Program-made: the position numbers and the translations under genes
Notes under the pieces: generated by a model
The model's input: only the letters and a program-made list of their open reading frames with translations
What the model was told of the DNA's origin: nothing
The model's database searches: none
Shown here: positions 513 through 17,185 of the stretch, piece by piece
Position numbering within the stretch: the stretch's first letter is position 1
Layout: every line of letters starts with the position of its first letter
Origin: a virus
Strand: one strand, 5' to 3'
DNA length: 22,808 bases
Virus record (IMG/VR): IMGVR_UViG_3300029787_000358
Coordinates: 1-22,808 of that record

Positions 513-724
513 ACTACGACCGGCTAGAGGACCTTGGTTATCAGCGCTTCGACTGCCACCGATGTGGTCGGAGATGTTGGACTGACACCGCGACCTGCGA
601 CTATTGCAAGCCCTGCTCCGACTGCGGAGAGTACGACGAAGAGGAGATCGGGGGCGACCCCTGCGTCTGCATCCTCGAAGAGCGCAGAGCCGAGTTCGAG
701 GCAAGTGGAGCACCACCTTTCTAG
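509..724 (+). CDS. Cysteine-rich zinc-ribbon-like small protein
   Basis: The protein has 71 residues with nine cysteines (positions 16, 19, 23, 30, 33, 36, 39, 52, 54). They form three C-x2-C knuckles (16/19, 30/33, 36/39) and one C-x-C (52/54), the usual look of a zinc-binding ribbon or treble-clef protein. Its ATG overlaps the upstream TGA, with AAGGA at 495-499 as ribosome site. Its own stop TAG (722-724) lies inside the Shine-Dalgarno sequence of the resolvase gene, so the three genes are coupled. Zinc ribbons of this size in phages often bind nucleic acid or act as adaptors, but nothing in the sequence fixes the target. I infer zinc binding; function is unknown. Confidence 0.75.
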   Translation: MNYDRLEDLGYQRFDCHRCGRRCWTDTATCDYCKPCSDCGEYDEEEIGGDPCVCILEERRAEFEASGAPPF

Positions 725-732
725 GAGCGACG

Positions 733-1254
733 ATGAGATTTGATTACTACAAAGAGCGCGAGGATTCGGTAGGTCCGTCTCGCATCGTGGTCGGCATCGA
801 CCCTGGACCCGAGAAGTGCGGCTTCGCTGTCTACGACGCGGGAGACAAGAAGGTCATCGAGTCCCACAAGGCTATGCCTGTCGAAGAGGCTTTGAGGAAC
901 ATCGACATCTACTCAGGTCGTGCTGGACTCGTGGCGATTGAGCGGGTCCAGTCCTATGGCATCGCCGGGTCCTCGCTGCTCCGCACATCCGAGACGGTAG
1001 GTCGGCTCTGGCAGTGCTCAGAGGACCTCAGACTGCCCACAGTGCTCATCTACCGTCGAGAGGTACTGAGAGGTCTGGACGTGACCGGAAAGGGCAACAG
1101 GGACGCTCTGGTGCGCGAGAGGCTCATCGAGATGCACGGTGGGGAGCGCAGGAAGGCCCAGGGGACGAAGAAGGAGCCAGGTCCGCTCTACGGGGTCAGT
1201 TCGCACGCCTGGCAGGCTCTAGCGGTCGCAGTGGTCGCCGGGATGGGGCAATGA
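733..1254 (+). CDS. RuvC-like Holliday junction resolvase
   Basis: A 173-residue protein of the RuvC/RNase H-like nuclease fold, expected to cut branched DNA before packaging or during recombination. Motif I is VVGIDPGPEKCGFAVYD with catalytic Asp23; motif II is LVAIERVQSYG with Glu70; a basic segment (TGKGNRDALVRERLIE, 118-133) follows as in phage RuvC-like proteins; the C-terminal motif is SSHAWQALAVAV. In RuvC this last motif is (D/H)-x-x-D-A-L-A; here His158 fits the first position, as in Thermus RuvC, but Gln161 replaces the final Asp. The length fits RuvC (about 170). I chose ATG 733 because AGGAG (723-727) sits five bases upstream and the preceding gene ends at 724; the frame stays open upstream to 604 but that part overlaps the zinc-ribbon gene and is low-complexity Arg-rich. 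Confidence 0.87.
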   Translation: MRFDYYKEREDSVGPSRIVVGIDPGPEKCGFAVYDAGDKKVIESHKAMPVEEALRNIDIYSGRAGLVAIERVQSYGIAGSSLLRTSETVGRLWQCSEDLRLPTVLIYRREVLRGLDVTGKGNRDALVRERLIEMHGGERRKAQGTKKEPGPLYGVSSHAWQALAVAVVAGMGQ

Positions 1255-10361: not shown

Positions 10362-12631
10362 CAGACGTACTCCTGCCGGACTCGGTTGCCGTAGGCCAGG
10401 CCCCGCTCCTGTTGGCGAATCAAGTAGTTGTCCACAGACTCACCGAGGACCCTGCCGTCGAGCTCCACGGTGGTCCGAATGGTCTGGGCTCCTCCACCGT
10501 TCTGCATCTGGGCCTTCTGAATGGCAAGCATCTCTGTGATGTGCTTCGTCCCGACCGGGTCGAGGAGAGTCTCGTCGTTTCGCATGACGATGGCGCTGTG
10601 GTTGTTGAGGCCCGCACTCTTGAGCATCTCGGAGGTAATACCTGCGTCACCGATACCCTGAATGCTCGTCCCGATGATGGTGGCGATCTCAGCAGCACCC
10701 GCCGCGCCAATCGTAGCCGCAGCAACAATGTTGGCAGGGAAAGCCGCGACCAACTGCGGGTTTCCGAGCGCGCCCGCAACGCCAGCCGCAGTGTTCACTG
10801 TCGCTGTCGCAAGGGCAAGAGCCTGAGATACATGGAAGAGAGCAATTGCCTGCTTCTTTGCGTTCTCGTCCCCGCCTTCGTACATCGTCATGGCGACTTG
10901 CGAAAGAGAGGCAAACATGTTGCCAATCTGACCGACCATGTCTCCATAAGAGTAGGCAGTATTTACATTGGCTTGAAGAATAGCAGCGTTGGTCTGAGCC
11001 ATCCCGAGCTGGATGTCTCTCTCCATCATCTGTCGCGCCTGAGCGACTCTTTCGTAGTAGACGATTTGGTCTTCCGTCGTCTGCTTTGTGATATCAAGGT
11101 TTTCCTTGGCCTTGGTGACCCGTATTTGATACTGCTCCTCAGCGGCTCGCCTAATCTCAGCAGTAGACCTGTCTAGGAACTCGGACTCTTTTACGATCCC
11201 AGCCTCGAACAGCGTGGAAAGTCGCCCGAGGTCTTCTGCGAACAAAGCCTCTAGATCCGCCCTGACTTGGTGCAGGTGATCAACGTATTCCTCTAGCGCT
11301 TTAGACTCTGCTTTTAGCTGAGCCATGAGGTCCTTTGCCGCTCTAGAAGCTGCCTCCTTCGCTAGCCTGGACTCCTCTGCCGCCCTCTTTCGAGCCGCAG
11401 CCCTAGCTCGAGCCTCTCTTTCCCTTTGCGCCTTCCTGTCGGCAAGCTCTGACTTGATTCGCTCGCGCTCGATTGCAGCAAGCTCCTCCTTAGACATCGA
11501 GACCCACTCTTGGATCACGCCCATGCCAGGCGCGAGGGACAACTCAATCGCTGCCGCAGTGTCGTCGCCCAGAGCCTGGAGGAGCATCCCAGTGCGCTCC
11601 ATCATGCCGGTAAAGGCATCAGGGAGCCCCTTAACGTCTTTGATGAGCTCCTTGCCGTTCCTTGCCAGGGAAATGAAGTCAAGGCTCATGGCGTCTGCCA
11701 TCGTGCCGGTCGCATCAAGGGCTAGCTTTGTAATGCGAATGTAAGCCTCGATGGCAGCAGACAAGACCACGACGGACTTCGCTGCATCCCGCATCGCGCC
11801 AGCAAGTCTCTTTGCGAAAGCCTCGACACCCTCAGTGTTCTGAAGGGTCATCAAGTAGTCCGTTGTGACCGTAGCCAGATGCGTCATCTCTGGGATGAGG
11901 TGCTCTCCGAGCTCGATTCTCAGCCCGCGAAACGCAATCTCAAGGTCGGTCTGGGCGTCGATGAAGGCCTCTGAGTTAGCCAGCATCTCGGCGCTCATCA
12001 CCGCATTCAGTTCTGCGAGGCGTCCCTGAAGCTCCTCGATGCCTGCGGCCCCACCCTCCATGAGGTTCGCCATCTCGGTTCCTGAACGACCGAGGAGGAG
12101 CATCAGGACACCTGTGCGCTCTGCAGACTCGCCTAGGACCTCAGCCTTGTCCGCAAGCTCGAGGAAGACATCGTTGACGGGACGCAGCTTGCCGTCCGAC
12201 TCTGCGATCTCGATCCCCAGAGCAGCAAAGGTCTCTTCGAGCTGACGAGATCCCTGCTGAGCATCGGTCATCACTCGACCGAGCTTCTTCAGACCATTCG
12301 AGACAGCCTTGACGCTGGTTCCCGCCCTCTGAGCCGCGAACTCGTAACCCTGATATTCCTCTGCGGTAACGCCGACCATCCTGGCCTGCTTAGCCATTCG
12401 GTCGCCAAACTTCGCCATCTCGAAGGTGGACTCATCAAGGATCTTGAAGGCCGCACGGAAGGTGGCACCCATAGCCCTGCCCGCCGTATTCAGTGCCTGG
12501 AGCCCTGCCCCCGCAGCAATCATGGCCCCGGCCATCTTCTTGACCGACACCCCGGTCTTCTGGCTTTCCTTCTGGGCCGTTTTCAGCCCGCGAACTAGCC
12601 CCTGTACCTGTGCCCCGATCTTGATGTTCAT
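10361..12631 (-). CDS. Tail tape measure protein
   Basis: A 756-residue protein and the largest gene in the window. The N-terminal third has the TP901-type pattern: VGVTAEEYQGYEFAAQRAG (87-105), FAALGIEI..DGKLRPVNDVFLELADK (135-162), GRSGTEMANLM (181-191). A long charged helical region (about 390-490, Ala/Arg/Glu repeats) is a predicted coiled coil, and an Ala-rich hydrophobic region (about 620-680) could enter the host membrane during DNA ejection. Tape measures set tail length at about 0.15 nm per residue, so 756 residues suggest a tail of roughly 110 nm. It starts at ATG 12631, overlapping the stop of the chaperone T frame (ATGA) with GGAGG upstream. The upstream frameshifted chaperones are the expected partners. 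Confidence 0.92.
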   Translation of the reverse strand: MNIKIGAQVQGLVRGLKTAQKESQKTGVSVKKMAGAMIAAGAGLQALNTAGRAMGATFRAAFKILDESTFEMAKFGDRMAKQARMVGVTAEEYQGYEFAAQRAGTSVKAVSNGLKKLGRVMTDAQQGSRQLEETFAALGIEIAESDGKLRPVNDVFLELADKAEVLGESAERTGVLMLLLGRSGTEMANLMEGGAAGIEELQGRLAELNAVMSAEMLANSEAFIDAQTDLEIAFRGLRIELGEHLIPEMTHLATVTTDYLMTLQNTEGVEAFAKRLAGAMRDAAKSVVVLSAAIEAYIRITKLALDATGTMADAMSLDFISLARNGKELIKDVKGLPDAFTGMMERTGMLLQALGDDTAAAIELSLAPGMGVIQEWVSMSKEELAAIERERIKSELADRKAQREREARARAAARKRAAEESRLAKEAASRAAKDLMAQLKAESKALEEYVDHLHQVRADLEALFAEDLGRLSTLFEAGIVKESEFLDRSTAEIRRAAEEQYQIRVTKAKENLDITKQTTEDQIVYYERVAQARQMMERDIQLGMAQTNAAILQANVNTAYSYGDMVGQIGNMFASLSQVAMTMYEGGDENAKKQAIALFHVSQALALATATVNTAAGVAGALGNPQLVAAFPANIVAAATIGAAGAAEIATIIGTSIQGIGDAGITSEMLKSAGLNNHSAIVMRNDETLLDPVGTKHITEMLAIQKAQMQNGGGAQTIRTTVELDGRVLGESVDNYLIRQQERGLAYGNRVRQEYV

Positions 12632-13490
12632 TTGTTCCGCCTCCGAGCTCGCTCTGATTCAATCTCAGCATGATGGGCAGAGACCAACATTGACTCTGAG
12701 TCAATGATACCGATGGCTTCGATCAATCGCGCATCCTGTTCCGACATAGAACCAGGGTGAGGCAACGACTTGAACCGACTCCACGCACTCCACTCGTGGA
12801 TCGCAGACCACATCCAAGGCTCGCAATCCCGAATCGGGCAGCTCGTCATCCTGCGATCAAAGGGCTGGCAATCCGAAGGTCGGCTCCGAGGCAGCTTGAC
12901 CGGGGTCCTAAACCTCTTCCGGCCTTTACTGTCTGGGTCGCCGTCCAGGCAGCGGGTTCCTCCGCAAGCTCCCCACAGCTTGCACCCGCTCCACCCGGAC
13001 TTCGACCAAAGGGCGATCTCTTCTTTTGTTGGACCGCTCTTAGAGACGTATTGGAAAGCGGCCCTTAGCCTTTTCCCTCGTCCTCGTCCACCGTACCCTC
13101 TCCGATCATGTGACTGCAGAGGTCGGTGGACAAGTCTTCGAGAACCAGAAGAGCCTCGAGAAGCTCGTCCCGACTGGGGACTTCGTCGTTGATGGTGAGG
13201 TCCCGACATCCTACGACTAGGTCCCTCATCATGTTCGCCCGAAACTCGGACATCAGAGTGTTCGCCTCGTGCTGTGATTGCACGATTCCCGCAATCCGCT
13301 CTTCCGATGCGTCCTCTGCGTCTTCTTGAGTCGCCGCAGAAAGCTCGCTGACGCACTTCTGGAGGCGTAGAGATAACTCTAGGTGCCTCGTCCTCCAGCC
13401 ATGCGTGATTGGACGGTACAAGATGACTGCCGTGTCTCCACTGGCGTCCTCCATCTTGAACTCGCGGACATTCCATCTATTCAATTCCAC
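12628..13490 (-). CDS. Tail assembly chaperone GT, -1 frameshift fusion
   Basis: The 141-residue G frame (13065-13490) and the frame that ends at 12628 lie 1 base apart, in the direction of a -1 shift. A slip at GGGAAAA (13071-13077) joins residues 1-140 of G to 147 residues of T, giving a 287-residue GT protein, as in phage lambda gpG/gpGT, where the two forms are needed in a set ratio to load the tape measure. The T part carries six cysteines (fusion positions 170, 176, 181, 208, 218, 223) and a Trp-rich stretch (WMWSAIHEWSAW). T has no good start of its own; the frame is open upstream only because it runs behind G. T ends in ATGA with the tape measure start. Confidence 0.85.
13031..13077 (-). 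promoter_or_regulatory. Programmed -1 ribosomal frameshift signal
   Basis: Slippery heptamer G-GGA-AAA (13077 down to 13071) in the correct zero frame, then a 6-base spacer (GGCTAA, which includes the G stop), then a stem: GGGCCGCT (13064-13057) pairs with AGCGGTCC (13038-13031), eight pairs including one G-U, extendable by two more pairs, with a loop of about 14-18 bases. After slippage the codons read GGG AAA AGG and continue into the T frame. Confidence 0.88.
13065..13490 (-). CDS. Tail assembly chaperone G (unshifted product)
   Basis: A 141-residue acidic protein just before the tape measure, the standard place for tail assembly chaperones. It is helical, with a C-terminus rich in Glu/Asp (EGTVDEDEGKG). 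It starts at GTG 13490, with GGGAG seven bases upstream. The stop TAA (13065-13067) lies six bases beyond the slippery site, so most ribosomes make this short form and a minority make GT. It probably binds the tape measure during tail assembly and is not in the finished virion. No sequence family is named; the assignment rests on location, size and the frameshift signal. Confidence 0.85.
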   Translation of the reverse strand: MELNRWNVREFKMEDASGDTAVILYRPITHGWRTRHLELSLRLQKCVSELSAATQEDAEDASEERIAGIVQSQHEANTLMSEFRANMMRDLVVGCRDLTINDEVPSRDELLEALLVLEDLSTDLCSHMIGEGTVDEDEGKG

Positions 13491-16653: not shown

Positions 16654-16827
16654 TTACTCGGCGGCTTCTGCCTTGGCCTTCTTCTTCTTAGGTGCGGCCT
16701 TCTTCAACTCCGCAGCGCCGCGACGGATGAGCCGCTCCGCGTTGTCGTCGTCAACCTCGATCTGCTCACCGGCTTTGAGCTCGATGCCCTCGATCTCGAT
16801 GTCGCACTTCAGAATCAACCTAGGCAT
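16654..16827 (-). CDS. Small 57-residue acidic/basic head-module protein
   Basis: A short gene hidden between its neighbours: ATG 16827, stop TAA 16654-16656, overlapping the upstream gene by eight bases, with GGAG in good position upstream. The N-terminal 40 residues (LKCDIEIEGIELKAGEQIEV, then DDDNAERLIRRGAAE) have the pattern of small phage proteins that lie near capsid genes: a beta-hairpin with an x-G-x3-x-A-G turn, a run of Asp/Glu, then a helix ending in GAA. The C-terminus is a Lys/Ala tail (KKAAPKKKKAKAEAAE) that could contact DNA or the acidic capsid surface. The neighbour (16820-17185) starts with a similar hairpin-helix module. Function unknown; probably part of head completion or capsid decoration. 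Confidence 0.7.
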   Translation of the reverse strand: MPRLILKCDIEIEGIELKAGEQIEVDDDNAERLIRRGAAELKKAAPKKKKAKAEAAE

Positions 16828-17185
16828 CGGATGCCTCCAGTTCCCCGAGTCGCTCTTCGATCAGATCCTTGCCACCCTTGCGACCATCGGCCTCGTGCAT
16901 CTCGAGCAGAAGGTCGGTGTCGTCAATGTCCTTGAGGACATTCGGCAGAAGCCGAAGGGGGACGTTGGTAATCGAGGAGGGCTCCGAGGGGTCGAAACCC
17001 GAGACTGCGGTCCCACGTCCCTGCTTTACAGGCTCAGGACGGACAACCACCTTCTCTTCGACTAGGCCGACCACCCCGGCATCGAGGAGACTCTGCATCT
17101 CCTCGATGGCCGGAACAATCGAACCTGCGGGATACATAGTCCCGTTGTAGATAACTGCCTGACCAGGCAAAACTTCGTAAGTCAT
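16820..17185 (-). CDS. Head-module protein with hairpin module and helical C-terminus
   Basis: A 121-residue protein. Residues 9-43 (AVIYNGTMYPAGSIVPA, then helix IEEMQSLLDAGVVGLVEE) match the module at the start of the next, 57-residue protein: strand, x-G, strand, A-G turn, helix ending in G. The middle is a linker and the C-terminus has RLLPNVLKDIDDTDLLLEMHEAD then RKGGKDLIEERL, two charged helices. AGGAG lies seven bases before ATG 17185. It lies between a fibre-like domain protein and the neck genes, and probably belongs to the head completion set. No family name is certain. Confidence 0.65.
   Translation of the reverse strand: MTYEVLPGQAVIYNGTMYPAGSIVPAIEEMQSLLDAGVVGLVEEKVVVRPEPVKQGRGTAVSGFDPSEPSSITNVPLRLLPNVLKDIDDTDLLLEMHEADGRKGGKDLIEERLGELEASDA

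Follow-up and report, generated by a model that had tools for sequence, protein, structure and literature searches.

The tail assembly chaperones gpG and gpGT of phage lambda are produced through a −1 ribosomal frameshift at the sequence G_GGA_AAG, a mechanism which is in itself ordinary and well known. A g-t frameshift is also described in the haloarchaeal siphoviruses HCTV-1, HCTV-2 and HCTV-5, which are considered here from a review description alone. The locus discussed here comes from a 22.8-kb virus record of IMG/VR, and the whole stretch analyzed, 22,808 nucleotides, is called the window. Two of its genes, named G and T after their lambda counterparts, were proposed in a preliminary description to be joined by a −1 shift of the lambda G/GT kind, and comparative data support this proposal: the slip site, its phase and both reading frames are kept in homologues, and the same junction is found in unrelated phages. 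It is thus highly probable from the sequence comparisons that a programmed −1 ribosomal frameshift at the heptamer GGGAAAA gives the two products G and GT, and this frameshift would add to the tail chaperones a family that is missed by the current PHROG and Pfam profiles.

Gene Organization and Protein Families

The minus strand of the window carries a structural operon composed of a portal-like gene, a Mu-type head maturation protease, the major head protein (phrog_1005), neck-type genes, the presumed major tail protein (MTP), G, T, the tape measure protein (phrog_8462) and tail tip genes, among which the neck, MTP and tip genes are named by their position; the presumed MTP has no match in PHROG or Pfam. 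G and T are two overlapping open reading frames between the presumed MTP and tape measure genes, the second in the −1 frame relative to the first, and the order is MTP-G-T-tape measure (Table 1). G starts with GTG, accompanied by a Shine-Dalgarno-like sequence GGGAG, and ends with TAA (13067-13065), while the stop codon of T at 12628 overlaps the ATG of the tape measure gene (12631). On the strand opposite to the operon, positions 604-1254 (+) encode a Holliday-junction-resolvase-like protein (phrog_1770, 4e-12). A comparison of the window with locus L007 gave identities of 98% for the presumed MTP and 91% for G and T, but only 39% for the tape measure protein, and from this drop a recombination break near the border of T and the tape measure gene is likely.

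Table 1. Features of the G-T region and their positions in the window.
Feature	Position	Strand	Basis
Slippery heptamer G_GGA_AAA	13071..13077	−	sequence; conserved in relatives
6-nt spacer GGCTAA, holding the G stop codon	13065..13070	−	sequence
Possible stimulatory 3′ hairpin (10 bp, loop of 14 nt), adjoining the G stop codon	13031..13064	−	predicted fold; synonymous null, P 0.02; comparable stems in 21/29 loci, none in the nearest relative
G, putative tail assembly chaperone, 141 aa	13065..13490	−	ORF; position between presumed MTP and tape measure genes; AlphaFold pLDDT 81; weak fold matches
T domain, −1 frame, 147 codons past the slip	12628..13071	−	frames; 31 relatives; amino acid sequence conserved in −1 frame downstream of the slip
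Predicted GT fusion of 287 aa (140 in common with G + 147)	12628..13490	−	inferred from heptamer and frames
282-codon ORF in the T frame, out-of-frame ATG, open through all of G into T	12628..13476	−	0/284 potential −1 stops used (ten clade members); TGA 0 against 20.6 expected
Tape measure protein, 756 aa	10361..12631	−	PHROG 8462 tail length tape measure protein, E 2e-26
Presumed major tail protein, 463 aa	13518..14909	−	position only

Neither G nor T gave a significant match to PHROG or Pfam, and no relatives were obtained when both were queried against phage records, when a T profile was searched against genome contigs, or when T was compared with solved structures. The fold modeled for G, in contrast to the low-confidence model of T (pLDDT 65), could be compared with known structures: many weak matches in BFVD are named tail assembly chaperone (E 0.009-0.3), and in the PDB the HK97 chaperone 2ob9 comes second with an insignificant E of 0.39. 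The VIA-align rows for G are within the range of common helical arrangements and were left out of the comparison. By profile, G lies outside every listed chaperone family. In layout and signal the G-T pair resembles lambda G/GT, and G would belong to a tail-chaperone family not recognized by PHROG or Pfam, a new family of a known kind.

The Slip Site

The zero-frame codons at the end of G are GAG GGA AAA GGC TAA, and the heptamer (minus strand 13077-13071) is in phase with them, as had been described; past the slip the −1 frame reads GGG AAA AGG CTA AGG GCC and so on. All the coordinates given in the preliminary description proved correct, namely those of the heptamer, of the 6-base spacer that includes the G stop, of the stem starting at 13064 (put at 8-10 bp, and found to be 10 bp, 13064-13031) and of a T frame running on in the −1 direction to the tape measure start (open to 12628); its account of two products which share 140 residues and split at the end of G likewise agrees with the GT predicted here. 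From these features we infer slippage in the cell as follows. Most ribosomes would finish G at the TAA codon, while a minority, with the peptidyl-tRNA on GGA and tRNA-Lys on AAA, would slip one base back onto GGG AAA and read AGG CTA AGG onward to give GT. By analogy with lambda, G would coat the tape measure protein and the T domain would recruit the major tail protein, and neither G nor the T domain would be kept in the virion.

The heptamer alone is not rare, since the window has one GGGAAAA where 1.75 would arise by chance, and this figure speaks for an alternative in which G and T are made as two independent proteins, with the heptamer and the hairpin there by coincidence. The features of the heptamer that go beyond chance are its position and its conservation in relatives. 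There are 16 in-phase sites of the form XXXYYYZ in 6657 codons, and of these only the one in G has a stop within 20 codons. Moreover, the slip site, its phase and the junction are conserved both in homologues and in unrelated chaperone genes, as described below; coincidence is contradicted by these comparative data and its probability is practically negligible.

Slip Site in Related and Unrelated Phages

The relatives were fetched by protein homology to G or T, and the heptamer was not used as a query; wherever their junction was readable, both frames and a slip site at this position are retained. In the 31 loci found by T homology the slip site is always at the same place, as GGGAAAA in 25, GGGAAAC in one and GGAAAAA in five, with both frames kept in all of them; thus the comparison of homologous heptamers which the preliminary description had called for came out in favor of the shift, with a variant heptamer in six loci. 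G ends 3-5 codons past the start of the slip site, with T in the −1 frame, in 31/31. Because several of the loci are near-duplicates, the independent lineages are estimated by us at about 15-20. The GGA and AAA codons at the slip site are invariant in all ten members of the window's clade, although these are minor codons (GGA, 22% of Gly; AAA, 18% of Lys). Synonymous conservation has its peak around the junction, with 1.75 times expectation at the end of G and 1.72 times at the beginning of T, a level that some MTP windows also approach (about 1.7). The T protein is itself conserved, with identities of 73-96% in near relatives and about 40% in remote ones.

Natural variants of the junction (GGAAAAA, a lost stem or a moved stop) reveal which parts of the signal are dispensable. 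In a sub-clade of five loci (L036, L037, L038, L039 and L052, near base 2995), GGAAAAA replaces GGGAAAA and both frames are kept; this is a weaker slip site, so the sub-clade constitutes a natural test of such a site. The ‘twofive’ motif class is listed among annotated backward shifts by PRFect, and by its description GGAAAAA would fit it. In four other loci (L041, L042, L043 and L046) the stop codon of G lies two codons further downstream (GAGTAG), still after a retained heptamer, and the downstream stem is weak.

The frames of the window's clade alone do not prove that T is entered at the heptamer, because the T frame is open upstream of it too. Apart from the relatives, a scan for the sequence GAGGGAAAARRCTAAGGGC gave L014/L015 and L019, phages with a G and a T that show no sequence relationship to those of the window. 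In L015 (7655-8418, −) and L019 (6739-7475) the 19-base junction GAGGGAAAARRCTAAGGGC is identical to the window's; G matches known tail assembly chaperones (phrog_344, 2e-6, in L015 and phrog_313, 1e-9, in L019), T of L015 has a match in phrog_337, a tail protein family, and downstream of T lie tape measure genes in both. The −1 frame meets a stop immediately upstream of the heptamer, one codon away in L015 and zero codons away in L019, so that T in these phages can be entered only at the heptamer. Of the sequence evidence that the motif works as a shift site, this closure of the frame is the strongest.

Downstream Hairpin

The hairpin of the window pairs 13064-13055 with 13040-13031 and folds to −15.2 kcal/mol (RNAfold), an energy matched by 3 of 200 dinucleotide shuffles. 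In a second comparison, with a null of resampled synonymous codons that leaves the T peptide unchanged, the stem has −15.4 against −7.8 ± 3.0, and its P value is 0.02. Among 29 loci, 21 fold to −10 kcal/mol or better, with a mean z of −0.95 against the synonymous null. The 5′ arm of these stems is usually GGGC straight after the stop codon, which is in part a consequence of the Leu-Arg-Ala conserved in T, and its pairing partners lie at varying distances. However, the nearest relative, L003/L006, whose G and T are 94-97% identical to those of the window, folds to −5.2 only and has no comparable stem, and weak stems are also seen in L029, L033, L041-43, L046 and L015. The stem as the key signal was therefore rejected. 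From the comparison of loci, a downstream stem appears to be favored but dispensable and is not conserved in detail, and the hairpin may help the shift.

The preliminary description had taken the strength of the stem as a sign of an efficient shift, which is not supported by a nearest relative without a comparable stem and by a family mean about 1 SD better than the synonymous null; since the stem is favored but not required, no shift efficiency can be deduced from it. It had also held that relatives which lose the stem or the heptamer while both frames stay open would speak against the shift. As for the stem, L003/L006 are such relatives; the slip site stays in them, and the shift itself is not refuted.

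Open T Frame across G

The T frame was described as having no start of its own, and this is not strictly true, for it can be traced back without a stop as far as an ATG (13476) that lies 14 bases inside G, which makes a frame of 282 codons. Across ten clade members, at positions from G codon 5 onward where a T-ending codon would create a −1 stop, such codons are used in 0 of 284 cases, as compared with 162/698 (23%) elsewhere in G. When seven roughly independent lineages are taken, the figures are 1/209 against 116/512 in G, and 16-18% against 20-26% in T, the MTP and the tape measure gene; the Fisher test for the seven lineages gives 6e-18, a value overstated by relatedness. In the −1 register of G, TGA occurs 0 times against 20.6 expected and TAA 0 times against 5.6, whereas TCA, TCT and TCG are not depleted (TCA, 13 against 8.3 expected), and the +1 register contains a normal number of stops. 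An antisense gene as the cause was rejected, because TCA is frequent in the −1 register and the antisense frame is consequently not open. A general codon-context bias was rejected as well, since the −1 stops observed and expected, summed over ten lineages, are 93/107 in the MTP, 48/67 in T and 176/216 in the tape measure gene but 3/47 in G. Nor is the avoidance a general property of G genes, because no depletion is found in lambda G (12 against 9.3), L015 or L019. Stops in the −1 frame are also scarce in a small gene elsewhere in the window (16820-17185, −), with 2 present for an expectation of 7.2 (P 0.003), which may be chance among the 26 genes tested.

The out-of-frame ATG is present in all ten clade members by way of the third base of G codon 5 (AGA, ACA, CAA or AAA, whose usage elsewhere is 9-19%), and in three of them a −1 UAG stands immediately before it. 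The weight of this conserved ATG is lessened by the frequent preference for A in early codons. In remote family members the avoidance of −1 stops is weaker and stops occur in several. In five loci (L038, L052, L040, L044 and L047) G contains −1 stops or the ATG is missing, but the slip site and T are retained. Conservation of the hidden frame at the protein level is modest, somewhat above controls in one test and not separable from T in another.

The stop-free frame from G codon 5 into T and the ATG at G codon 5/6 in 10/10 would be accounted for if translation from this ATG gave a 282-aa protein with T as its C-terminal half, and T were not made by a slip at the heptamer. Such a start, however, has no Shine-Dalgarno sequence at the usual distance, the sole GGGAG serving the GTG of G. 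The five loci just mentioned and the closure of the −1 frame immediately before the heptamer in L015 and L019 also argue against it, as does a protein-level conservation only weakly above controls, and the frozen codons of the heptamer would be left unexplained; T from its own start instead of by the shift is very improbable.

A shift at the heptamer thus stays the preferred explanation of GT, and a reading which adds to the frameshift without replacing it supposes two routes: the heptamer gives GT, and a second, weaker route, either an internal start or an early shift, gives T with an Arg/Gly/Ser-rich N-terminal half from the other frame of G. The strength and specificity of the −1 stop avoidance and the near-normal state of the flanking genes speak for two routes, while a protein-level signal clearly beyond controls and a ribosome-binding site are both missing and several clade B relatives tolerate stops; on balance the second route is possible but somewhat unlikely. 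In the same way we consider only tentatively that in these uncultured phages the T frame is selected to stay open across G from the conserved ATG, as a hidden overlapping gene of 282 codons or as an early second entry, either of which would yield, in addition to GT, a form of T whose N-terminal half is a different one. Read most specifically, the open frame would encode a hidden overlapping product that also contains the T domain; this reading is rather doubtful. If the open frame is translated, there would be a third tail-chaperone product, and the textbook model of two products would be incomplete for these phages.

Comparison with Known Systems

The window differs from lambda in several points. 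No sequence similarity of its G and T to those of lambda was detected in the search against phage records, the seventh base of the heptamer is A instead of G, and the stop codon of G comes just 6 nt past the heptamer. In addition, lambda G contains 12 stops in the −1 frame, while G of the window's clade has none past codon 4. On the other hand, the −1 direction, the re-pairing on GGG AAA and the position of the shift at the end of G are common to the two systems, the lambda order V-G-T-H corresponds to the order in the window, and T is open to the tape measure gene in both. The haloarchaeal siphoviruses HCTV-1, HCTV-2 and HCTV-5 differ from the window in their hosts and genes. The chaperones of PHROG 344 and 313 in L015 and L019 are unlike those of the window in their unrelated protein sequences and in a T frame closed directly before the heptamer, and they are like them in the junction GAGGGAAAARRCTAAGGGC and in the arrangement before the tape measure gene.
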